Assembly: GCA_020832925.1 (NCBI GenBank)
Contig: JAJHRF010000015.1
Location: forward strand, 1 to 35,503
DNA length: 35,503 nucleotides
Reading direction: 5' to 3'
From: Desulfurococcaceae archaeon
GTDB taxonomy: Archaea; Thermoproteota; Thermoprotei_A; Sulfolobales; Ignisphaeraceae
Below are positions 6,615 to 35,216 of the stretch, piece by piece. A program made the position numbers and the translations under genes. The notes under the pieces were generated by a model that did not search any database, was not told the DNA's origin, and saw nothing but the letters and a program-made list of their open reading frames with translations. Numbering within the stretch: position 1 is the first letter of the stretch; the number at the start of each line of letters is the position of its first letter.

Positions 6615-8014
6615 CCGAGGAACCCTCTTATCCTCCCTAACGCGATTATGTGAGGCTCTACAGAGTTAAGCTCTATAAGAGCTCTGTAGATCTCGGAGGG
6701 CTCAGGTTTTATACCGAATATATCTAGAACTTCATCGATCTTCTTAACCAGGTATTCATCTAACCTCTTCAGAGCTACACTTCTTACGTAGAACTTCGAA
6801 TCGTATAGCCATTCCTTCTCTAGATAGGGTAGTACTTCTAGTAGGTCATCTAGTTTACCATTTTTATATAGATCTACTATGAAATCTGCATCGAGATACG
6901 TTGGGGGAACACCTACGGAATACCATGTAGCGGTATAGACTATCGCTCTAGGAACAGATAGCTTCGCATCTTGAGCTGGTAGAATTCTACCATATTCTCT
7001 CCAAGAAACTCTATCTCTCGTACTTGGCACAACCTCTGCTATTCTCTGGATAACGTTGATATATCTAGAGGCTAGTGCTCTATACTTTTCAGTAGCTTTC
7101 TCAACGATTTCAATAACACCGCTATCAACGCTATTCGGTTTAAGATCTACGTTCTCTAAGATAGTGTCTCTGACCATTATATAGTCTTTGAACGGCATAT
7201 CATATCTAATCGCGGATTGAATCGTAGCTGTACTAAATCCTCGATATCTTTGAGCTTCATATAGAACTAGCTCTGGATTGTTTATAGCTCCTCTGAAAGG
7301 AGGTACACCCATACCTATTATAGGTTTTATCTCCATTCTTAGCTCTCTAGATAATCTGTGAAGCTCGTTCAATGCATATATAATCGAGAGAGATGACGCT
7401 ATATGCCCTGATTTAACAGCTGCATCACTTTTACCTAAGAAAACCCTCAGAACCTCAATCTCTATCCCGAAGTCTTTAAGTACTGAGAGCAATGTCTTTA
7501 CATGGGATCTCACGTATATATGGCCATGAACATCCTCTATCAACGGTATAAGCTGTACAGGTTCTAAGTTTATACCTAGCTCCTCTCTAAATATGTTTAA
7601 CTTCCTCAATATCAACCTCTGAACAAATCTAACAGTATTTAGATCCTCAACCATAGGCAGTATCAACCATCTGACTGCCTGAACTTTGGCTAATCTAGCT
7701 GAGTAGTAGTTAGCTATGAACCCTGCCTCTATGGAAAGGTCAACTCTATCAAAATCTTCTAGCGATGGGTTAGGTATACGTGGCGTTACAAAGACTTTCT
7801 CCCCTATAGGTATTCCAAAGTTTAACGCTTTCACAACTATATCTTTCGGCTGAGCATATGGTGTCAACTTACCTTCATAATCACTCATAACCTCGTCACA
7901 TCCATACATAGTGTACGCCTGAATAGCTTCATCAACTTCTTGCTGAGCTGTTACTCTCTCTGTAGCATCAGGATGTTGTGTACACATAAGCTTCGGTATC
8001 AACATAATTCTCAA
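6611..8014 (-). CDS. ppcA: Phosphoenolpyruvate carboxylase, archaeal type
   Basis: The N-terminus LIPKLMCTQHPDAT is diagnostic of the short archaeal PEP carboxylase family (about 470-510 residues), which is only distantly related to the bacterial/plant enzyme. It adds bicarbonate to PEP to give oxaloacetate. Other family segments are VMSDYEGK, FVTPRIPNPS, VFLGKSDAA and GMGVPPFRG. The ATG at 8005, with GGTTGAG a few bases upstream, is a better start than the TTG at 8014. It is the last gene of a minus-strand run that includes threonine synthase and a (homo)citrate-type module, all using products of oxaloacetate, so it plausibly supplies that carbon. Confidence 0.95.
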   Translation of the reverse strand: MRIMLIPKLMCTQHPDATERVTAQQEVDEAIQAYTMYGCDEVMSDYEGKLTPYAQPKDIVVKALNFGIPIGEKVFVTPRIPNPSLEDFDRVDLSIEAGFIANYYSARLAKVQAVRWLILPMVEDLNTVRFVQRLILRKLNIFREELGINLEPVQLIPLIEDVHGHIYVRSHVKTLLSVLKDFGIEIEVLRVFLGKSDAAVKSGHIASSLSIIYALNELHRLSRELRMEIKPIIGMGVPPFRGAINNPELVLYEAQRYRGFSTATIQSAIRYDMPFKDYIMVRDTILENVDLKPNSVDSGVIEIVEKATEKYRALASRYINVIQRIAEVVPSTRDRVSWREYGRILPAQDAKLSVPRAIVYTATWYSVGVPPTYLDADFIVDLYKNGKLDDLLEVLPYLEKEWLYDSKFYVRSVALKRLDEYLVKKIDEVLDIFGIKPEPSEIYRALIELNSVEPHIIALGRIRGFLG

Positions 8015-8070: not shown

Positions 8071-9303
8071 TTAAGCAGGTATTGCTCTGAATACCGTATC
8101 TGGATCTTTTAATGCATGACCTGTTGCCACCAGGATCACCAGGTCATCTCTACTTATCTTCCCCTCATTTACACATTTAATCAGTGCTGCTAACGTTGTT
8201 GCACTAGCAGGTTCAACACCTATACCTTCGTATTTCGCTAATATCTTCATAGCGTTCAGTATATCTTCATCACTTACTGTTACGAAGAAACCGTTAGACT
8301 CTTTAACAGCCCTCATCGCTTTGAACCAGTTAATGGGTCTACCTATCCTTATAGCTGAAGCTATTGTTGTAGGTTTATCAATAAATAGTGGTTCAGTTAA
8401 ACCTCTAAACCACGCTGTAGCTATAGGTGCTGCACCCTCAGCCTGCACCCCTACCAACCTAGGTAGATCGTTTATTAAACCAAGTTCGTATAACTCTTTG
8501 AATCCTTTCCATATAGCCGATATATTCCCTGCATTACCCACAGGAACTATAACGAAGTCCGGGGTAGTACCCAGCTCATCTACAATCTCGTAGGAGATCG
8601 TTTTCTGACCTTCTAATCTCCACGGATTGAAAGAGTTCAGCGGATAGTATCCACTAAGTTCTTCGTTTAAAACTTTATCTAGAACTTCTTCTAAAGCACT
8701 ATCAAACGAACCTTCAACTTCTTTTATTTCTGCACCGTGAAGAAGTGCTTGAGCTAGCTTACCTCTAGCTACGCCACCTTGAGGAAGAACAACGAGACAT
8801 CTTAAACCTGCTCTAGCGGCATAAGCTGCTGTAGATGCTGCGGTATTCCCGGTGCTAGCCACTACAACCCCTTCAACCCCTAGATACTTAGCTATTGTGA
8901 CGCCTACAGTCATACCACGATCTTTAAAACTACCAGTAGGATTAGCACCCTCGAACTTTACGTAGACATTCCTTGAATCGACAATCCCTCTCTCGTAAAC
9001 ATTCCTCAACTTGATAAGAGGGGTACCCCCTTCGCCTAGGGTTACAGGTTCAACCTCATCTCTTATAGGTAGAAGTTCTCTATACCTCCAAACCCCAAAC
9101 CGCCTCTCTCTCGCTTTATTCCACCGGAATTCCTCTACATTAATAATAACATCGATCAGCGATCCGCATTTAGGGCATAGGAATAGTCTTGGCTTTGGTG
9201 TATAGATTTGGCCGCATTTCACGCATTTTAAGATAACATTTGGTTTAACTATTTTATACATCGAGTAGAGCTCAACTATGTTTCCACGGAAACCACCGTA
9301 CAA
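8071..9303 (-). CDS. thrC: Threonine synthase
   Basis: PLP enzyme converting O-phosphohomoserine to threonine, the last step of threonine synthesis. It starts with a four-cysteine zinc ribbon (Cys27, Cys30, Cys43, Cys46), then the PLP lysine in NPTGSFKDRG (Lys127), the phosphate-binding ASTGNTAASTAAYAARAG segment and PVGNAGN. The N-terminal Zn ribbon and length of about 400 are normal for archaeal ThrC. The TTG at 9303 and the ATG at 9261 are both possible starts; the ATG leaves the zinc ribbon intact and removes 14 unconserved residues. It lies 75 bases downstream of the dehydrogenase gene and 57 upstream of ppcA on the same strand. Hom, Asd and aspartate kinase of the same pathway are at 29-32 kb. 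Confidence 0.95.
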   Translation of the reverse strand: MYGGFRGNIVELYSMYKIVKPNVILKCVKCGQIYTPKPRLFLCPKCGSLIDVIINVEEFRWNKARERRFGVWRYRELLPIRDEVEPVTLGEGGTPLIKLRNVYERGIVDSRNVYVKFEGANPTGSFKDRGMTVGVTIAKYLGVEGVVVASTGNTAASTAAYAARAGLRCLVVLPQGGVARGKLAQALLHGAEIKEVEGSFDSALEEVLDKVLNEELSGYYPLNSFNPWRLEGQKTISYEIVDELGTTPDFVIVPVGNAGNISAIWKGFKELYELGLINDLPRLVGVQAEGAAPIATAWFRGLTEPLFIDKPTTIASAIRIGRPINWFKAMRAVKESNGFFVTVSDEDILNAMKILAKYEGIGVEPASATTLAALIKCVNEGKISRDDLVILVATGHALKDPDTVFRAIPA

Positions 9304-9377: not shown

Positions 9378-10415
9378 CTATGCTTTCCTTAGCAACTCTA
9401 ACTCTTCTGCAACAGCTTTAGCTACATCCATAGTCTTATAGTTACCACCTAGATCTGGTGTCCAGATACGCTTCTCATCTACAACATTTTGTATAGCTTT
9501 TTCGAGCAATTTAGACTCTTTTACTGCCTTACTATCCCCGTACCTCTGCCCAAAGTATTCAAGCATTAGTTTCAGAGATACGAAAGATCCTACAGGGTTC
9601 GCTATACCTTTACCAGCGATATCTAGTGCTACACCGTGTATAGGCTCGAAAACCCCTATACTATCACCAACTAACGCTGATCCACATAAACCTAGGCTAC
9701 CCATAAGACCTCCTACGAGATCCGATAGTATATCTCCATAAAGATTAGGTGTTACTAGTATTTGGAATTTCTCAGGGTTTTTCACGAGAAGGTACGCAGC
9801 TGTATCCACTATAACTTCTTCAGCTACGATGTTGGGAAACTCTTTCGCAACTTTGAAAAACACGTTCCTGAAAAGACCATCGCTTATCTTAAGGATATTA
9901 GCTTTGTGAATAACTACCACCTTGTTGAAACCCATGGTTTTAGCATAGTCAAACGCTAGTCTAGATATCCTTTCAGCACCTTTTACACTTATCAATCTCA
10001 AGGATATCGCTATATCGTTGAACATACCCTCTATACCTACATATTCTCCCTCTGTGTTCTCCCTGAATATAACTAAGTTGAATTGCTTCTGTGATAAACT
10101 TTTAAAACTCTTGAAAGGTCTTATGTTTGCGTATAGATCTAGCTCTTTCCTAATCATTACGTTTACGCTACGGAAGTTCAGATCATGAGGAGGTGTATAT
10201 AGAGGTCCCTTGAGAATGGCATCGAGTTTCCTTACTTCCTCGAAGAATCTATCCTCTATCGCTTTCCCCGTCTTCTTATAGTATTCGTAACCTGCTTGAA
10301 GTTCTACCAACTCTATATCTAGATCTATGTACTGTACTACGTAGAGCGTTGCCTCTATGATCTCAGGCCCTATTCCATCCCCCTTTATCACACCTACTCT
10401 GTACTTCTTACCCAC
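9378..10415 (-). CDS. Isocitrate/homoisocitrate/3-isopropylmalate dehydrogenase family; isocitrate-type substrate signature
   Basis: 345 residues, beta-decarboxylating dehydrogenase family. GVIKGDGIGPEI is at the N-terminus, IFRENTEGEYVGIEG lies in the middle and GDILSDLVGG carries metal-binding aspartates. The substrate-binding segment reads F-R-S-V-N-V-M-I-R-K-E-L-D-L-Y-A-N-I-R-P, giving Ser83, Asn85, Arg89 and Arg99. In this family the Ser-x-Asn pair binds the gamma-carboxylate of isocitrate, whereas isopropylmalate dehydrogenases have hydrophobic residues there. This favours isocitrate (NAD-IDH-like), possibly with homoisocitrate as well. The gene overlaps the aconitase-like small subunit by 22 bases and belongs to the operon starting at 13537. 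Start is at 10415. Exact substrate is inference. Confidence 0.85.
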   Translation of the reverse strand: MGKKYRVGVIKGDGIGPEIIEATLYVVQYIDLDIELVELQAGYEYYKKTGKAIEDRFFEEVRKLDAILKGPLYTPPHDLNFRSVNVMIRKELDLYANIRPFKSFKSLSQKQFNLVIFRENTEGEYVGIEGMFNDIAISLRLISVKGAERISRLAFDYAKTMGFNKVVVIHKANILKISDGLFRNVFFKVAKEFPNIVAEEVIVDTAAYLLVKNPEKFQILVTPNLYGDILSDLVGGLMGSLGLCGSALVGDSIGVFEPIHGVALDIAGKGIANPVGSFVSLKLMLEYFGQRYGDSKAVKESKLLEKAIQNVVDEKRIWTPDLGGNYKTMDVAKAVAEELELLRKA

Positions 10416-10921
10416 GGCGGTACACCGTATTTCTTGATATACTCAACTATTCCTCCAGATTCGAGTATCATCATCAACTCTTTGGGGAATGGTTTGAATT
10501 TCTCTTCAATACCTTTTGTCACATTCCTAACGACTGCGTTCGCCAAGTCTATCTCTATTATGTCTTCTGTCTCGGATACCTCAGGTATTGTCTGAGCTAC
10601 GATTACGGGTAGACCGATGTTTATAGCGTTTCTATAGAATATATGGGCGAAACTCTTAGCAATTACTGCAGAGATCCCTAGTAGTTTTAGAAGTCTTGGA
10701 GCATGCTCTCTACTAGATCCTTTACCGAAATTCTTTCCACCCACTATTACATCGCCTTTAGCTACCTTCTTGTAGAACTCGGGTATAACTTCTTCAAGTA
10801 CATGGGGTAGCATAGCTTCTAGATTATCTATAGCACTGAACTTGTACTTCCCCGATATGATATGGTCTGTACTTATGTTATCACCAAGTTTCCAACATCT
10901 CCCCCTAATCACCTGGACCAC
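10394..10921 (-). CDS. Aconitase-family small (swivel) subunit, LeuD/homoaconitase type
   Basis: 175 residues, the usual size of archaeal LeuD-type small subunits of isopropylmalate isomerase, homoaconitase or related hydro-lyases. GDNISTDHIISGKY opens the swivel domain, and IVGGKNFGKGSSREHAP is the family signature that closes over the active site. The substrate-selecting loop after GKY reads KFSAID (residues about 26-32), unlike the YLRT loop of methanogen homoaconitase or the YLVY-like loop of isopropylmalate isomerase as I recall them, so substrate is open. It is separated by one base from the large-subunit stop and overlaps the dehydrogenase start, consistent with tight coupling into one enzyme module. 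Confidence 0.9.
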   Translation of the reverse strand: MVQVIRGRCWKLGDNISTDHIISGKYKFSAIDNLEAMLPHVLEEVIPEFYKKVAKGDVIVGGKNFGKGSSREHAPRLLKLLGISAVIAKSFAHIFYRNAINIGLPVIVAQTIPEVSETEDIIEIDLANAVVRNVTKGIEEKFKPFPKELMMILESGGIVEYIKKYGVPPWVRSTE

Positions 10922-10922
10922 C

Positions 10923-12176
10923 TCATAAATATCTACGGGGATCAGCTATCCTACCTTCTACAGCCGATGCCGCTGCTACAGCAGGTGATGATAAGTACAC
11001 CTTGCTATTCTTGTGACCCATACGCCCTGGGAAGTTCCTATTAGAAGTCGATACAGCTACCTCACCCTCTGCGAGCAAGCCCATGTGAGCACCAACACAA
11101 GGTCCGCACGTTGGTGGAGCTACTATACACCCAGCTTCTAACAGTATATCTACGTAACCTTTCCTCAGAGCCTCTACATATACCCTTCTCGATGCTGGTG
11201 CAACAATACATCTAACTCTCGGATGCACCTTCCTATTCCTGAGAATCTTTGCCGCTAATTCGATATCTTCTAATCTCCCGTTAGTACACGAACCTATGAA
11301 AACCTGGTCAACCTCAACTTTCTCAACTTCTTCAACACCAACCACGTTATCTACATCAGGAGGTGCCGCTACTACAGGCCCCATTTTATCTACCTCGAAA
11401 ACTATTTCTTCTACGAACTCTGATTTCTTGTAGTCATAGTCTACGTATCTGTAAGGTGTAACACCTTTGCCCTCTAACCACTTCAAGGTTATTTCATCTA
11501 AAGGAATTACAGCGGATTCAGCACCCATCTCTGTACACATATTTGTTAATGTAAGTCTTGAATCAACTGAAAGGTGTTTAAGAGTATCGCCATTGAATTC
11601 TACGGCTTTCCCTAGCATACCGTCTGTACCAAGCTCCCCTATAATGTTCAGTATAATGTCTTTCGATGTAACTCCCCTAGGTGGGATCCCCGATATCACT
11701 ATGTTCACAGTAGGTGGTACTCTTACCCACTGCTTCCCATAGGCTATAGCTATAGCTGCATCAGTACTCCCAACACCTAATGAATACAAAGCTAGAGCTC
11801 CTATCGTAGGTGTATGGCTATCAGCCCCCATAACAACCATACCCGGTCTAACAATCCCCTCTTCAACAACTACTTGATGACAGATCCCATACCCTACATC
11901 GAATAAACGTATTGCATACTTACTAGCGAACCTCCTCATCTCCCTATGGACGTGTGCTGCTGATACATGGGGAGCAGGCGCTGAATGGTCTATAAAGAAA
12001 TATGTTTTATCTGCTGCGTAAAGCTTCTTCACACCCAATTCTTTCTCTAGTACCTCGATAACCAAGGGTGCTGTCCCATCGTGTGCGTATACTGTGTCTA
12101 CATCTATGATAACTATGTCTCCTGGGGAAACCTCTTTCCCGATAACTCTAGATAACAAGGTATCGATTAACCCCAT
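10923..12176 (-). CDS. Aconitase-family large subunit, LeuC/homoaconitase type
   Basis: 417 residues, as expected for the archaeal two-subunit form (bacterial LeuC is about 465). Three [4Fe-4S] ligands are visible: Cys297 in IGSCTNGR, and Cys357 and Cys360 in PPTCGPCVGAH. Other family segments are YAHDGTAP, DHSAPAP, GADSHTPTIGAL and NRNFPGRMG. With the small subunit it would interconvert citrate/isocitrate, homocitrate/homoisocitrate or isopropylmalate isomers. The gene lies between the Re-citrate-synthase-like gene (47 bases upstream) and the small subunit (next base but one). No other aconitase is in the window. The enzyme type is certain; the substrate is not. Confidence 0.92.
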   Translation of the reverse strand: MGLIDTLLSRVIGKEVSPGDIVIIDVDTVYAHDGTAPLVIEVLEKELGVKKLYAADKTYFFIDHSAPAPHVSAAHVHREMRRFASKYAIRLFDVGYGICHQVVVEEGIVRPGMVVMGADSHTPTIGALALYSLGVGSTDAAIAIAYGKQWVRVPPTVNIVISGIPPRGVTSKDIILNIIGELGTDGMLGKAVEFNGDTLKHLSVDSRLTLTNMCTEMGAESAVIPLDEITLKWLEGKGVTPYRYVDYDYKKSEFVEEIVFEVDKMGPVVAAPPDVDNVVGVEEVEKVEVDQVFIGSCTNGRLEDIELAAKILRNRKVHPRVRCIVAPASRRVYVEALRKGYVDILLEAGCIVAPPTCGPCVGAHMGLLAEGEVAVSTSNRNFPGRMGHKNSKVYLSSPAVAAASAVEGRIADPRRYL

Positions 12177-12223: not shown

Positions 12224-13537
12224 TTACTTCTTAAAAAGTTCTGGCATATGTTTTTTAACGAAGTTCGCTATCTCTTCATCTGTTAGAGGTTCGACTCTGT
12301 TGGTTTTGTTGAAGTAGTCAACTATATCATTGTAGATCGCTATAACCCTGGGATCGTCTTTACTTATCCCGTTGTATCCTAGGTAATTCCTTACCCATAA
12401 AACAATAGCTGCTCTCCCCGAGTAAGGTGTTATAGCTACAGAATATGGTTTTCCTAGAACTTTCATAGGGTCGAAAGGTAGGTAAACCTCAGGATTCTTC
12501 ATAAGACCGTCAACATGTATACCTGCTTTAGTTCTAAAAGCATTTCTACCTACTATAGGGTAGTGATCTACTGTTCTGTACCCCATCTTCTCGAATAGGT
12601 CTAGTATCCTAGGCAAAGCCTTTAAATTCACATCGTTCGAACTTTTTATACCTGCATAGTGCACAGCCATGACCTCCAATGGGCAGTTCCCAGCCCTCTC
12701 CCCTATGCCTAGCAACGTACAGTTAGCCCCACCAGCTCCATAGAGCCACGCAGCTAGTTGATTCGCTACCGCTAGCCCTAGATCATTATGTGCATGGAAC
12801 TCTATGTTCTCTGGATCTACCCCAGCATCTCTAATAGCCTTAACTATCCTCGGAATACTTCTAGGGAGTGGAACCTCGTAGAATGGTAGACCTACGCCAA
12901 GGGTATCTGGAAGCTTTATCTTTACAGTTACTCCATACTTCTCGCTTAAGTTTAAGAGCTTCTTTACGAAAGGTATAACAACACCTTCTATATCTGCCCT
13001 AGTAATATCTTCAAGCGAAACCCTGGGCGCTATGCCATGGCTAAGAGCTTTCTCTACAACATCTAAGTACTTGTTCAAAACAACATCTCTAGGTGCATTG
13101 AATTTATACTTTATATGGTAGTCAGATATAGATGCTAGAATAACAGCCTCCTCTAGACGAGAATCTATCACTAGCTGTAGATCTGATAATGTTGCCCTGA
13201 TCCAGCCTATAACCTTGGGGTACTCGTATCCGTAGCTTAGCAATCTCTTAACAACTTCTCTATCCTTCTCTGTGTAGACAAAAACCTCTGTACTCCTAAC
13301 AGCTCTCCCGATATCTACAAGAAGTTCGTATATACGTTCACATTCCTCAACAGTAAAAGGTCTCCAACCTTGCTGCCCATCTCTAAGTGTTGTATCTGTA
13401 AGATATATCTTCCTCAGATTCTCTTCAAAAAATCTATCCGGTACTACAGCTACACGAGGAACATCTATAAAGGGGTACACATCTCTATAAAATAAACCTC
13501 CCAAATCGTTGCTCATATGTTGCACCATTATTATCAT
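12224..13537 (-). CDS. DRE-TIM acyltransferase resembling Re-citrate synthase (citrate or homocitrate forming)
   Basis: 437 residues. DTTLRDGQQGW (48-58) carries the metal-binding Asp and catalytic Arg of the DRE-TIM superfamily, and FHAHNDLG (247-254) supplies the two metal His. The body matches, as I recall it, clostridial Re-citrate synthase rather than LeuA/NifV: S-T-E-V-F-V-Y-T-E-K-D-R, YPKVIGWIRA, ISDYHIKYKF, EDITRADIEG and LLGIGERAGNCPLE. Such enzymes condense acetyl-CoA with oxaloacetate; 2-oxoglutarate (homocitrate synthase) or 2-oxoisovalerate remain possible. It is the first gene of the module, followed by aconitase-like subunits and an IDH-like dehydrogenase. The ATG at 13537 is the longest start; internal ATGs at residues 4 and 8 are also possible. 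Confidence 0.85.
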   Translation of the reverse strand: MIIMVQHMSNDLGGLFYRDVYPFIDVPRVAVVPDRFFEENLRKIYLTDTTLRDGQQGWRPFTVEECERIYELLVDIGRAVRSTEVFVYTEKDREVVKRLLSYGYEYPKVIGWIRATLSDLQLVIDSRLEEAVILASISDYHIKYKFNAPRDVVLNKYLDVVEKALSHGIAPRVSLEDITRADIEGVVIPFVKKLLNLSEKYGVTVKIKLPDTLGVGLPFYEVPLPRSIPRIVKAIRDAGVDPENIEFHAHNDLGLAVANQLAAWLYGAGGANCTLLGIGERAGNCPLEVMAVHYAGIKSSNDVNLKALPRILDLFEKMGYRTVDHYPIVGRNAFRTKAGIHVDGLMKNPEVYLPFDPMKVLGKPYSVAITPYSGRAAIVLWVRNYLGYNGISKDDPRVIAIYNDIVDYFNKTNRVEPLTDEEIANFVKKHMPELFKK

Positions 13538-13564: not shown

Positions 13565-13748
13565 CATCTTAACAGAACTTTATATGCATAGCGATGATAC
13601 CTCAAGACAGAGTTATGGATTGGGTTTGGACGGATTTCGCACGCTAGCAAAAACTTCTGCTATCTATACAGGTAAGATTACCTAGCAAATCGTTATAAAA
13701 TTATTACAGTGTTCACTATCTAAATGCGATAAGTTATGTAGAAGAAAA

Positions 13749-29165: not shown

Positions 29166-30230
29166 TTAGACAAGGTTTTTCTTAACGATAAGCTCCGCTA
29201 TCAGTACTCCAGTACCTGCAGCTCCTCTAATAGTATTATGTCCTAAAGCAAAGTATTTAACCCCATTCAATACCTTATCTTCTCTCACCCTACCCACAAC
29301 AACACTCATCCCATTACCCTCCATCCTATCAAGCCTCGGTTGAGGTCTATCAGGCTCCCTCCTAACTATGATAGGTTTCTCTGGTGCTGTAGGGAGACCC
29401 ATACCCCTTATCTTATTATCTTTGAACTCCTCTAAAGCCTTGATAACCTCCTCTACATCTACTACTCTCCCTAACTCGACAAAGACCGCCATAGAATGTC
29501 CTTCGAGAACCATTACCCTATGGCAGCTAGCTGTAACCTTGAATTTGTCGTTCATCAAGATCTTATCCTTATCCAGCGTACCGAGGATTTTTCTAGACTC
29601 TGTTTCTACTTTCTCTTCCTCACCCTCTATGAAAGGTATCAAATTATCTAGTATAAACATCGATGGAACACCTGTTAAACCGGCACCAGATAAAGACTGC
29701 ATTGATGCTACAACAACTCTCTTAATATCGAACTCATCGTGTAGAGGTTTTAGTGTAAGAGTTAGAATAGCTGTTGTACAGTTCGGCACTTTCGCTATGA
29801 AGCCATCCCATCCTCTATTCCTTCTCTGGACCTCTACAACATCTATATGATCAGCATTGACCTCGGGGTTTAGTAGAGGGATATCGGGCTCCAACCTCAT
29901 ATTACTTGCATTCGAAACCACTACTAAGCCTTTACGCGCTAACTCTGGTTCAACTGTAGTTGCAACCTCTTTGGGTAGAGCAACAAATACTATATCGATT
30001 TTCTCTTCAACAATTCTATTAACATCTAGAGGTTCTACAGTAAGCTCCTCAACTTTTCTAGGCATAGGTTTCTCTATAACCCATTTAACAGCCTCCGTAT
30101 ACTTCTTACCCACAACCTTCTCAGAAGCTGTAACCATTACTAAGTCAAACCACGGATGATCAGCTAAAAGAGATACGAACCTCTGACCAACAATACCTGT
30201 AGCTCCTAGCACAGCTACACGTCTCTTCAT
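29166..30230 (-). CDS. asd: Aspartate-semialdehyde dehydrogenase
   Basis: 354 residues. NADP-dependent reduction of aspartyl phosphate to the semialdehyde, the common step to threonine, methionine and homoserine. VAVLGATGIVGQRF is the nucleotide motif and Cys151 in KVPNCTTAIL is the catalytic nucleophile; QSLSGAG and SCHRVMVLEGH are family segments of the archaeal/fungal type. ATG at 30230 overlaps the stop of aspartate kinase by four bases. Third gene of hom-lysC-asd on the minus strand. Lysine does not need it if the LysW route operates, so its role here is mainly threonine/homoserine. Confidence 0.96.
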   Translation of the reverse strand: MKRRVAVLGATGIVGQRFVSLLADHPWFDLVMVTASEKVVGKKYTEAVKWVIEKPMPRKVEELTVEPLDVNRIVEEKIDIVFVALPKEVATTVEPELARKGLVVVSNASNMRLEPDIPLLNPEVNADHIDVVEVQRRNRGWDGFIAKVPNCTTAILTLTLKPLHDEFDIKRVVVASMQSLSGAGLTGVPSMFILDNLIPFIEGEEEKVETESRKILGTLDKDKILMNDKFKVTASCHRVMVLEGHSMAVFVELGRVVDVEEVIKALEEFKDNKIRGMGLPTAPEKPIIVRREPDRPQPRLDRMEGNGMSVVVGRVREDKVLNGVKYFALGHNTIRGAAGTGVLIAELIVKKNLV

Positions 30231-31342
30231 GGCTGATCACCTTCAAAAATTACTTTATGCAGTATTTTTAAGATTTCGCGGCCCCTTGATTTATCTACAA
30301 ACAGTACAATGGAAGGTCTGTGGACGTGTGCTTGAATACCTTTGATATCTATACCTAACTTAACCACTGTATCCAGTAGATCTCTCACAAATTTTGCACT
30401 CGAAACCCCTTCACCTACTATAGCTATGTAAGCATAATCTCCTGCATCCTTAAGCATTATAACCTTAGGCCCTATGAAATCTCTCGATATTTCTCTAGAA
30501 ATCATCGTCCCAATGTTTCTCCAAGACCCTATCAAGAGGTTCGAGCTGTAAATCTTAACCAAGGGGTCAAATGCTTTCGGGTTTATCCCTTTTGCACCAT
30601 ACATAGAAGCTTCTAAAGCTTCTACATAGCTCATGTGTTTAACGAGACGGGCTGTTGGAACGAGGTCTGGATCTGTAGTCATAATCCCATCGACATCTGA
30701 TACAAGGTACACCTTATCTATCTTGAGGAGAGATGCTATTGTTGTTGCAGTATAATCGGAACCTCCTCTCCCAATCGTGGTAACCTCTCCTTCAAAAGAC
30801 CTCCCTATAAACCCCTCTATGACTGGTACATAGCTATGATTCTTTATCACGCTGTATACCTTTTCCAAAGCTATAGCCGTTGCAGGATAGTCTATCACCG
30901 CATCACCATGAGTATTATTTGTAACTATTATATCAGTAGCGTTGAGCTCAAAAGCTCGTATATCGTTGAGTTCGAGAGCTTGAACCATGATGATCTTGCT
31001 TATCTTCTCACCATAGGAAAGTATGTAGTCTGTTAAAACCGAATCGGCAATTCCTACACCTTCAGCTACTCTCCTTAGCTTATCTAGCTCCTCTTCAATT
31101 CTTTTCACAAGTTTAAAAGAACCTATCTCCCTCGCTATGCTGGTATACCTGTTCTCTATCTCTTTAAGAACCTCTTTACGCCCTTTAGCAACATCTAGAA
31201 GCAGATCTGTAATACCTTTTGAAGCTGATACAACTACTATAGGCCTCAAATTCTTCTCTACGAACAGCTCCTTTACATTCTTCGCAGCCTCGATGTAGTC
31301 CCTACCACTTTTAAGGATAGAGCCTCCTAGTTTGATAACTAC
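30227..31342 (-). CDS. Aspartate kinase, no canonical start codon
   Basis: Phosphorylates aspartate for homoserine/threonine synthesis. The frame from TTG 31249 lacks the ATP-binding N-terminus; the same frame read upstream gives V-V-I-K-L-G-G-S-I-L-K (31342 onward), the conserved aspartokinase start. So the real protein is about 371 residues. TTIGRGGSDYTATTIA, VSDVDGIMTTDP and an ACT-like C-terminus (YIAIVGEGVSSAKFVRDL) follow. No ATG, GTG or TTG lies in frame between the upstream TGA (about 31368) and 31249. ATG at 31344-31342 overlaps the frame by one base and reads straight into TAG. The hom stop is at 31348, so translation is coupled or begins at a non-standard codon. Confidence 0.85.
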   Translation of the reverse strand, partial: VVIKLGGSILKSGRDYIEAAKNVKELFVEKNLRPIVVVSASKGITDLLLDVAKGRKEVLKEIENRYTSIAREIGSFKLVKRIEEELDKLRRVAEGVGIADSVLTDYILSYGEKISKIIMVQALELNDIRAFELNATDIIVTNNTHGDAVIDYPATAIALEKVYSVIKNHSYVPVIEGFIGRSFEGEVTTIGRGGSDYTATTIASLLKIDKVYLVSDVDGIMTTDPDLVPTARLVKHMSYVEALEASMYGAKGINPKAFDPLVKIYSSNLLIGSWRNIGTMISREISRDFIGPKVIMLKDAGDYAYIAIVGEGVSSAKFVRDLLDTVVKLGIDIKGIQAHVHRPSIVLFVDKSRGREILKILHKVIFEGDQP

Positions 31343-32516: not shown

Positions 32517-32936
32517 TTAAACCCATGTTCGGAGCACTATCATTGTATACGTACTCACTACCCCGGGGATAGACCTTATCTCATCGATAAACTTATTGAT
32601 CATGTCGACCCCTGAAGCTCTTGCAACAGCGATTATATCGTATTCTCCTGTAACTTCGTAAACTATATCGATACCTGGGATATTCTTGATATTCTTAGAA
32701 ACCTCTGGTACTGGTGTAGGTGGCTGGGTTTTCACCAAGATTACGGCTTTGATTTCGTTCTCTAGCTCGTACTCTATAGTAATCTTCTTGATTATTCCGT
32801 TCTTTATGAGCTTCGATATCCTCTTCCTGACAGCACTCTCGCTTATCCCTAGCTCTTTAGCTAGTTTTGAGTATGACATTCTAGCATTTTCTTTGAGTAG
32901 CTGGAGAAGTTTTAGATCTAGCTCGTCTATAGGCAT
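32517..32936 (-). CDS. lysM: Lrp/AsnC-family regulator, LysM-like
   Basis: 139 residues. N-terminal helix-turn-helix (ELDLKLLQLLKENARMSYSK then ELGISESAVRKRI), a hinge and a C-terminal RAM domain (GIDIVYEVTGEYDIIAVARA) that usually binds amino acids. Sulfolobus LysM controls lysWXJK in response to lysine. This gene sits nine bases after lysZ in the lysY-lysZ run, so the role is likely the same, with the palindrome near 34940 as a candidate operator. Named LysM from context, as Lrp paralogues are hard to separate by sequence. Confidence 0.85.
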   Translation of the reverse strand: MPIDELDLKLLQLLKENARMSYSKLAKELGISESAVRKRISKLIKNGIIKKITIEYELENEIKAVILVKTQPPTPVPEVSKNIKNIPGIDIVYEVTGEYDIIAVARASGVDMINKFIDEIRSIPGVVSTYTMIVLRTWV

Positions 32937-32945
32937 AGCATACCT

Positions 32946-33755
32946 TTACCTCTCTATCACCGTCCCTGAACCTTGTAGAGAACTCGTTATAGGTTCTTCA
33001 GATAACCCTGAAGCTATAACAATTCTCCCAACACCTTCTTCAACAGCCTTCTTAGCTAAGAGAATCTTTCTATTCATGCCTACACCTATTTTCGGTAGCA
33101 ATACATCAATCTCGTTAACCTTAAGCTTCTTAACTACGTTACCATCCAATATAACCCCTTCAACATCTGTTAACATTATGAGCTGCCCTGCTTTTAGAGC
33201 TGTTGCAACAGCGTATGCTGCTTGATCACCATCAACATTTAGCAATGTTCCTTCTAAATCAATAGCTATAGGGGCTAACACCACGGTATAGCCGCTGGTT
33301 AACAACTTAGTAACAAGCTCTGTCTCTACCTTCACTATCTTGCCTGTATAGCCTCCGTCTATAACTCTCTTCCTCCCTCTCTCATCCACTATAACTATCC
33401 TTTTCTTCCTCTCAGCGATGAGTGTTGGTCCGTCGGCTCCACTTATACCTATAGCTTTCACATTTAAAGCTATTAATTTTGATACTAACATCTTGTTGAT
33501 TTTGCCCGCCATAACCATTACGTAAACCTCCAGCTCCTTTTCGTCAGTATACCTACTCCTTATCCCCTCAGGCGATGTAACGAACTTAGGTTCTATACCT
33601 AACCTCTTACACATCTCTGTAACCTCATCACCTCCACCATGAACAAACACTACCTGATGTTGCTGAACAACTTTTGCTAAATCTCTCACTATTCTATCCA
33701 TATTCTGGGCAAGAGCTCTGCCACCAACCTTGACAACTATAACCACGTTCACCAC
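32946..33755 (-). CDS. lysZ: LysW-aminoadipate/glutamate kinase (LysZ; ArgB family)
   Basis: 269 residues, amino acid kinase fold. VVIVVKVGGRAL at the N-terminus, FVHGGGDEVT, and ISGADGPTL, VNVDGDQAAYAVA-type and LTDVEGVI segments match ArgB/LysZ. It phosphorylates the side-chain carboxylate of the LysW-bound aminoadipate (lysine) or glutamate (arginine); in Crenarchaeota it often does both. It is translated between lysY and lysM with gaps of six and nine bases. Start at 33755 is the MVNVV position. Confidence 0.94.
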   Translation of the reverse strand: MVNVVIVVKVGGRALAQNMDRIVRDLAKVVQQHQVVFVHGGGDEVTEMCKRLGIEPKFVTSPEGIRSRYTDEKELEVYVMVMAGKINKMLVSKLIALNVKAIGISGADGPTLIAERKKRIVIVDERGRKRVIDGGYTGKIVKVETELVTKLLTSGYTVVLAPIAIDLEGTLLNVDGDQAAYAVATALKAGQLIMLTDVEGVILDGNVVKKLKVNEIDVLLPKIGVGMNRKILLAKKAVEEGVGRIVIASGLSEEPITSSLQGSGTVIER

Positions 33756-33761
33756 CTAACC

Positions 33762-34820
33762 TCATACAGGTTTCAGCGGTGGATATCGGAGAGCTGTTGT
33801 TTCATCGAATTTCATCATTATGTTGAAAACTTGTACAGCTTGGCCTGCAGCACCTTTAACAAGGTTATCTATAGCGCAGAACGATGTTATTCTTCTCACT
33901 CTTCTCTCAACAGCAAAACCTACATCAGCATAGTTACTACCAACTACATATTTTGGATCTGGGTACCCTGGAGGAACTTTATACACTATCCGGATAAACG
34001 GCTCATCTTTATAAACATCGACATAAGCCTTCAGTATCTCAACATCATCTAAATCCCTAATCATCCAACCATGTGTTGATGCAAGTGCACCTCGTATAGC
34101 TCCTACAGCGTGCGGCACCATCGATATCTTTACATCTTTCCCAGCCAAAGCACTAATCTCTTGCTCAACCTCTGCTACATGTCTATGACCATCTGCTTCA
34201 TAAGGCCTTATACAGCCTTCACGTTCAGGATGATGATCCGCTATAGATGGTTTAGAACCTGCTTCACTACTACCTACTTTAACATCTATAACTATTCTAT
34301 CTAGATCTATGATACCGTGCTTAACTAGAGGTATAAGGGATAGGATGGACGCTGTAGCGTTACATCCTGGCACCGCTACCAATACGGCGTTCCTTATCTC
34401 ATCTCTATGAAGTTCAGGTAAACCGTAAACAGCTCTCTTCAATAGATCTTGGTATGGATGCTGGAAACCATACCATATCTTATAGAGCTCTGCATTCTTC
34501 AACCTAAAATCTGCACTTAAATCTATAACCTTTAAACCTACCTCTAGAAGTTTAGGAACATACTCAAGAGAAACTCCATGAGGTAGAGCAGAGAAAACTA
34601 CTTCACAACTCGACGATATCTTACCTAAATCTATGGAGCTGAACTTCAGGTTCCGGTATACACCTCGAAGATTGAAATGTACTTGGTGAACAGGTTTACC
34701 TGCATACTCTCTCGACGTGACAACAGCAATCTCTACATAGGGATGGTTAGCTAGAATCCTTAGTAATTCTCCACCTGTATAACCAGAGCCACCAAGTATA
34801 CACACCTTAACCTTGCTCAA
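33762..34820 (-). CDS. lysY: LysW-aminoadipyl/glutamyl-phosphate reductase (LysY; ArgC family)
   Basis: 352 residues. NADPH-dependent reduction of the LysW-linked acyl phosphate to the semialdehyde. ILGGSGYTGGELLR is the nucleotide motif, VAVPGCNATAS holds the catalytic Cys, and VPHAVGAIRG and FCAIDNLVKGAAGQAVQ complete the ArgC/LysY fold. The start is TTG 34820 with AAGGTGA (34833-34827) six bases upstream; an out-of-frame ATG lies just before. First gene of lysY-lysZ-lysM, divergent from lysW-lysX. Confidence 0.94.
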   Translation of the reverse strand: MSKVKVCILGGSGYTGGELLRILANHPYVEIAVVTSREYAGKPVHQVHFNLRGVYRNLKFSSIDLGKISSSCEVVFSALPHGVSLEYVPKLLEVGLKVIDLSADFRLKNAELYKIWYGFQHPYQDLLKRAVYGLPELHRDEIRNAVLVAVPGCNATASILSLIPLVKHGIIDLDRIVIDVKVGSSEAGSKPSIADHHPEREGCIRPYEADGHRHVAEVEQEISALAGKDVKISMVPHAVGAIRGALASTHGWMIRDLDDVEILKAYVDVYKDEPFIRIVYKVPPGYPDPKYVVGSNYADVGFAVERRVRRITSFCAIDNLVKGAAGQAVQVFNIMMKFDETTALRYPPLKPV

Positions 34821-34857: not shown

Positions 34858-34869
34858 CTTTTATATAGC
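34858..34869 (-). promoter_or_regulatory. Putative TATA box for lysY
   Basis: CTATATAAAAGC on the minus strand, about 38-49 bases before the TTG at 34820; the leader carries AAGGTGA. Confidence 0.55.
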
Positions 34870-34923: not shown

Positions 34924-34963
34924 GGTGCAGAACCTTATCAAGATCTTGATATGGGTTCGCACC
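34924..34963. promoter_or_regulatory. Interrupted palindrome between lysY and lysW, candidate LysM operator
   Basis: The core TATCAAGATCTTGATA (34936-34951) is a perfect 16-base palindrome. The flanks GGTGC (34924-34928) and GAACC (34930-34934) are repeated inverted as GGTTC (34954-34958) and GCACC (34959-34963). It lies about 55 bases from the lysY TATA box and 17 from the lysW TATA box. An Lrp-family dimer binds such sites, and lysM is in the neighbouring operon. Assignment to LysM is inference. Confidence 0.55.
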
Positions 34964-34978
34964 AATAATTACTACGAC

Positions 34979-34990
34979 ACCTTTATAACC
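34979..34990 (+). promoter_or_regulatory. TATA box of lysW-lysX
   Basis: ACCTTTATAACC-like element; initiation is expected near 35010, leaving a leader with AGGTGG (35035-35040) five bases before the lysW ATG. Confidence 0.6.
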
Positions 34991-35045
34991 CCCGCATTAG
35001 GTAAGAGATTGAGATGTACATCAAATAGTCTAATAGGTGGAGAAA

Positions 35046-35216
35046 ATGCCTCAAACAAAATGCCCTATCTGCGGAGGAATAGTTGAACTACCAGACGATG
35101 TAATGGCTGGTGAAATAATTGAACATGAATGTGGAGTTTCGCTAGAAGTTGTAATAGATAACAACACTATAAAGCTAAAACCATACGAAGGTGTTGGTGA
35201 AGACTGGGGAGAGTAG
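35046..35216 (+). CDS. lysW: Amino-group carrier protein LysW
   Basis: 56 residues. A small acidic carrier whose C-terminal glutamate is linked to alpha-aminoadipate (or glutamate) so that lysine (or arginine) is made on the protein. Zn ribbon: C-P-I-C near residues 6-9 and H-E-C near 27-29, V-S-L-E-V after it, and the diagnostic tail GVGEDWGE. All conserved features are present. ATG 35046 with AGGTGG five bases upstream, and lysX follows four bases after the stop. It confirms the LysW route of lysine synthesis. Confidence 0.96.
   Translation: MPQTKCPICGGIVELPDDVMAGEIIEHECGVSLEVVIDNNTIKLKPYEGVGEDWGE

Follow-up and report, generated by a model that had tools for sequence, protein, structure and literature searches.

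A predicted LysM-type operator upstream of lysW, and at a second putative lysine operon, in Ignisphaera and related archaea

The closest described counterpart of the site reported here belongs to LysM of Sulfolobus and Saccharolobus, an Lrp-type regulator that acts at lysWXJK just upstream of the lysW promoter, each dimer register following the layout half-site-N7-half-site. In S. acidocaldarius, the LysM iModulon includes lysWXJK, homocitrate synthase and the 3-isopropylmalate dehydratase genes, and lysYZM is absent from it (PMC8578740). More generally, archaeal Lrp dimers are described as binding sites of 13 to 17 bp, neighbouring sites being separated by two or three turns of the helix, and archaeal Lrp activators are placed just upstream of the BRE/TATA elements (PMC2995911). 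BarR and Ss-LrpB, Lrp-family members of the Sulfolobales, have multi-site operators in which 15-bp semi-palindromic sites form a regular array upstream of promoters, the Ss-LrpB consensus being given as TTGC-N7-GCAA in PMC4046817. By sequence, the closest solved chain to the LysM protein discussed below is FL11 of Pyrococcus (PH1519; 2cyy/1ri7), a lysine-binding Lrp protein which, according to PMC2995911, has lysine as effector and lysJKYZ as target, but which represses with lysine as co-repressor; it comes from another order of archaea and is likened to LysM by protein, not by site.

We analysed a window of 35,503 nucleotides, a contig of a 1.88-Mb genome, whose lysW region resembles the Sulfolobus/Saccharolobus system in its LysM equivalog, in lysW as the predicted target, in the proposed register layout and in the position of the site just upstream of the lysW promoter. 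It differs in several respects: the half-site is GTGC/GTAC here, as opposed to GTTC in the family f9 (taken to be Sulfolobaceae); a 40-bp double arrangement takes the place of one compact dyad; the TATA-like box lies 15-18 bp away instead of 8-9 bp; and lysY is divergent from lysW, whereas f9 has lysM leading into lysW in a tandem arrangement. Compared with the BarR and Ss-LrpB operators, the half-site sequence and the targets are different, and the registers are incomplete on their inner sides. In the literature searched, which left most subscription papers outside, we found no account of a LysM operator of Ignisphaera, nor of "Ignisphaera" together with "lysine biosynthesis". The regulator family and the lysW target are known; the half-site differs, the operator is longer and a second target operon is predicted from sequence. 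This would extend a regulator known experimentally in Sulfolobus to Ignisphaera, with a predicted lysine regulon of two operons whose site is spelled out.

The lysW/lysY intergenic region and its dyad

The lysW gene (35,046-35,216, plus strand) matched NF041070 above cut-off. Its listed open reading frame opens at an in-frame GTG at 35,037, and we preferred the ATG at 35,046 since it is preceded by GGTGG. Divergent from lysW, on the minus strand, are lysY/argC of the N-acetyl-gamma-glutamyl-phosphate reductase family (33,762-34,820) and lysZ, encoding a [LysW]-aminoadipate/glutamate kinase (32,946-33,755), both assigned by open reading frame and profile match, followed by lysM (32,517-32,936), whose product is the likely binder. 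An earlier reading of this DNA, made from the sequence only, had placed lysM in the operon adjacent to lysW, and this was borne out by an equivalog match to NF040947 (205 bits, cut-off 180). On the same contig, family profiles align to the aspartate kinase open reading frame (30,227-31,249) only from about position 33-36; either the real start codon is further upstream, or the gene is short at its 5' end.

The candidate operator occupies positions 34,924-34,963 (40 bp) and reads GGTGCAGAACCTTATCAAGATCTTGATATGGGTTCGCACC in the window. Inside its 40-bp inverted arms lies a perfect 16-bp palindrome, TATCAAGATCTTGATA (34,936-34,951), and the whole is located between the two TATA-like boxes, just as the sequence-only reading had described it. 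Within this genome, seven of ten positions pair in the outer arms and nine of ten in the core. That reading had put its weight on the 16-bp palindrome, wrongly as it turned out, given that relatives keep the outer arms and not the core. The core by itself is weak to modest evidence and near chance for the window, because three such palindromes were observed compared to 0.87 expected from shuffles; the probability that one of them would land in the 225-bp lysY/lysW intergenic region is 0.008.

Conservation of the arms and spacing to the lysW promoter

Our genus sample comprised 11 genomes, ten of which have lysW, and a dyad resembling GGTGCRGAT-N22-ATCCGCACM was found at the homologous place in nine of these ten, being 40 bp long in eight and 39 bp in one. 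The tenth genome (G001) has no dyad at lysW, only half-sites of the right type. Averaged over the eight 40-bp operators, the commonest base accounts for 82% in the arms versus 66% in the core, and while 5-8 of ten arm positions pair in all nine operators, core pairing amounts to 9/10 in this genome, 1-6/10 in the seven other 40-bp operators and 4/9 in the 39-bp one. The conserved part of the predicted operator is therefore its arms, 34,924-34,932 and 34,955-34,963, and the expectation that the palindrome would be kept between relatives holds for these and fails for the core. Judged by sequence comparison, a semi-palindromic site upstream of lysW is conserved among the relatives, and the same dyad, 39 bp long, precedes lysW in three genomes of the family f8.

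By-eye weighting of half-sites served for candidate finding only, and the tests that followed relied on profiles derived from operators of the genus. A profile derived from the other eight of these, with this genome excluded, ranked the window's site first among 70,927 placements, with a score of 19.5 as opposed to 10.6 for the runner-up (6,932-6,970); since the training sites were themselves chosen by eye at the homologous place, only the window, second-operon and other-family tests count as out-of-sample. Another perfect 16-bp palindrome (6,977-6,992) lies close to this runner-up.

We then considered the position of the operator relative to the two promoters, using for both sides a TATA scoring table set by hand. 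The lysW TATA-like box (34,982-34,989, plus strand) lies 18 bp downstream of the operator, and the best box on the lysY side (about 34,860-34,867, minus strand) lies 56 bp from it. Across the genus, the gap to the lysW box is 15-18 bp in eight of the nine operators (the ninth, at 13 bp, is an automatic and doubtful call), and it is 17 bp in all three f8 genomes. Towards lysY, three of nine operators (those of G002, G007 and G008) have a box 18 bp away. The operator is placed for lysW, as the gap to the lysW box is nearly constant and that on the lysY side is not; of the earlier proposal that it serves both directions, the lysW half agrees with this spacing, and control of lysY would be conjectural, with a box at matching distance in these three genomes only. 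The absence of lysYZM from the S. acidocaldarius LysM iModulon is in line with this placement.

As to internal architecture, the layout GTNC-N7-GNAC, recognized by eye, delimits a left (34,925-34,939) and a right (34,948-34,962) 15-bp Lrp-type register, both given on the plus strand, with centres 23 bp apart. Their outer halves, GTGC and GCAC respectively, are strong, and the inner halves appear weak: a positive score was obtained for the left inner half in 4 of 16 operators and for the right inner half in 0 of 16 at the canonical spacing. We favour a LysM tetramer or two dimers on the two outer half-sites; as the inner half-sites are mostly absent, one gapped dyad with a tetramer bound to it is a less favoured possibility.

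A second putative lysine operon and the size of the regulon

A pattern search recovered the dyad in G002 on another stretch of DNA, where it precedes an isopropylmalate/homocitrate synthase family member that is followed by a homoaconitase-like gene. The corresponding genes of the window all lie on the minus strand and comprise a homocitrate synthase-like gene (12,224-13,537; closest solved chain 6ktq, a homocitrate synthase), the large (10,923-12,176) and small (10,394-10,921) subunits of a homoaconitase-like enzyme, and a homoisocitrate dehydrogenase-like gene (9,378-10,415; closest solved chain 3asj, a homoisocitrate dehydrogenase). In the profile scan none of them reached the NCBIfam equivalog cut-offs, and so we infer these labels from family profiles. 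A role in lysine synthesis is nevertheless likely from the sequence comparison, because another family member in the genome scores far higher as an isopropylmalate synthase than does the 12,224-13,537 gene. Upstream of this operon lies a second, degenerate copy of the putative operator (13,604-13,643, minus strand), which ranks fifth in the window (p = 0.066 against shuffles) and is situated 17 bp before a TATA-like box. Next after the homoisocitrate dehydrogenase-like gene, and in the same orientation, comes a threonine synthase gene (8,071-9,303), so that the contig holds a cluster of threonine and lysine genes.

Scoring with the lysW-operator profile covered ten upstream regions of homocitrate synthase-like genes in the genus, an eleventh (G006) being too short. 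Six of the ten were significant at p ≤ 0.02, those of G003 and of this genome gave p = 0.060 and 0.066, and both such promoters of G001 had no significant dyad by this profile. The paralogue promoters, scored as a control, gave 0/9 significant and none below p = 0.16. Although the sites had first been placed by hand, an unaided profile scan returned identical positions. The operator-to-TATA-like box gap is 16-17 bp in five of eight, this genome included; in the three others the script chose a box at 5 bp, and a second AT-rich box at 17 bp was seen by eye. The sequence-only reading had called for a search for the same site upstream of other lysine genes, and the homocitrate synthase-like promoters supplied it, with this genome's own copy remaining borderline. 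Beyond the genus, among the homocitrate synthase-like promoters of 19 genomes, compact or extended sites were significant in some members of the families f7 and f8, and not in the rest. G001, the sole lysW-bearing genus member lacking the dyad at lysW, possesses a second, paralogous homocitrate synthase-like copy.

There is no sign of a large regulon, as the extended pattern with at most one mismatch had 81 matches in the 11 genomes compared to 73 for a reversed control. Exact matches occurred at eight places, six of them at lysW and two elsewhere (G003:C54 and G006:C82). Similarly, the 16-mer of the right site had 35 matches with at most two mismatches versus 39 in controls, and all three of its exact matches, as well as four of the five with at most one mismatch, lay at lysine operons.

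LysM as the candidate regulator and competing explanations

Across the 214 genomes of the order, LysM was above cut-off in 83, lysW was matched in 97 and both were present in 75, corresponding to a Fisher odds ratio of 46 (55 without three weak lysW matches); as the genomes are related and hence not independent, the p values of this co-occurrence serve as a guide only. In addition, lysM adjoins a homocitrate synthase-like gene in four f7 genomes (G138, G143, G126 and G141), three f3 genomes (G052, G054 and G055) and one f1 genome (G011; here the match to the homocitrate synthase-like gene contains stop codons). We scored 90 lysW-upstream loci, taking p ≤ 0.02 as significant. Outside the genus and f9, 13 of the 36 LysM-positive loci had a significant site, compared to 1 of the 17 LysM-negative ones; the other 23 LysM-positive loci had none. 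In f9, the top match of the genus profile was a compact site of the GGTTC-N7-GAACC type in 16 of 27 loci, which by eye overlaps the lysM stop codon before lysW and which lies 8-9 bp before the TATA-like box where the box call is clear.

Taking these data together, we consider it probable that LysM, an Lrp-type regulator, has its operator in the 40-bp dyad and thereby controls two lysine operons. The earlier assignment to LysM is in this sense well supported: the dyad is conserved and recurs at the second operon, a LysM equivalog is encoded in the adjacent operon, and LysM co-occurs with lysW; it is the stress on the 16-bp core that has to be given up. In the mechanism that we propose, two LysM dimers or one tetramer would each grip a strong outer half-site (GTGC... 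and ...GCAC), and the operator, which in most cases precedes the lysW TATA box by 15-18 bp, would be where an archaeal activator can aid TBP/TFB binding. The same operator at the homocitrate synthase/homoaconitase/homoisocitrate dehydrogenase operon would place the two halves of the aminoadipate route to lysine under LysM, and lysine or other amino acids may weaken activation, as proposed for Sulfolobus LysM. We infer that LysM is what binds here, that it activates instead of repressing, and what its ligand would be, the lysine response and activation being carried over by analogy from Sulfolobus LysM as described in PMC2995911 and PMC4046817.

An alternative that we regard as unlikely, yet the most serious of those considered, is that the dyad serves another regulator of the lysine or arginine pathway, which could be a further protein of the Lrp type or a factor of some other kind, with LysM a mere neighbour. 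This genome does encode six Lrp-like matches, LysM and five further ones, the LysM-negative G171 carries a strong compact site, and some archaea use LysW in making arginine as well (PMC8578740); on the other hand, LysM both co-occurs with and adjoins lysW and the homocitrate synthase-like genes, and the layout matches that of the f9 site, where Sulfolobus LysM acts. The two remaining explanations are both highly improbable in our view. A 40-nt dyad would fold as a hairpin, and one Rfam match was obtained (19.1 bits, E = 0.31, below the gathering score of 48.5), so that the element might act as RNA, be it a leader hairpin of the attenuator or riboswitch kind or a terminator separating the two divergent operons. 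However, the TATA-like boxes of lysW and of lysY are both downstream of the element, which is hence outside the expected transcripts, and the core, which would form the tip of the stem, loses its pairing in relatives; we set the RNA reading aside on account of this position. A chance palindrome without function would agree with the near-chance count of 16-bp cores in the window, and chance may indeed account for the core, but it is contradicted for the arms, which relatives carry at the corresponding position and which turn up again at the second operon.

Returning to LysM as the regulator, we aligned 31 LysM sequences and found that the residue after SE in the recognition helix is Ser outside f9 (Gly in G009) versus Ala in the six f9 proteins, a difference that represents one split of the tree and is a lead only. 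It is conceivable, though we hold this as a rather doubtful conjecture, that a single order saw a rewiring of both the binding specificity of LysM and the build of its operator, with GTGC half-sites outside f9 (as the 40-bp double site in the genus and some f8) and a compact GTTC dyad in f9 (Sulfolobaceae by inference), the switch following the Ser-to-Ala change and the two-operon lysine regulon kept throughout. The natural series of operator variants and regulator sequences offers a testbed for the archaeal Lrp DNA code and for oligomer spacing.

A loose regular expression for the compact site, applied to 42 lysY loci (many of them Aigarchaeota/Caldarchaeum), returned some matches, of which those in G126 and G143 of f7 alone were convincing by eye. 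Lastly, five f3 genomes (G044, G047, G043, G046 and G041) have lysW and lack a LysM match that reaches the cut-off. Upstream of lysW they carry words resembling GTGTTACA/TGTAACAC in place of the dyad, suggesting that a different regulator acts on this operon.
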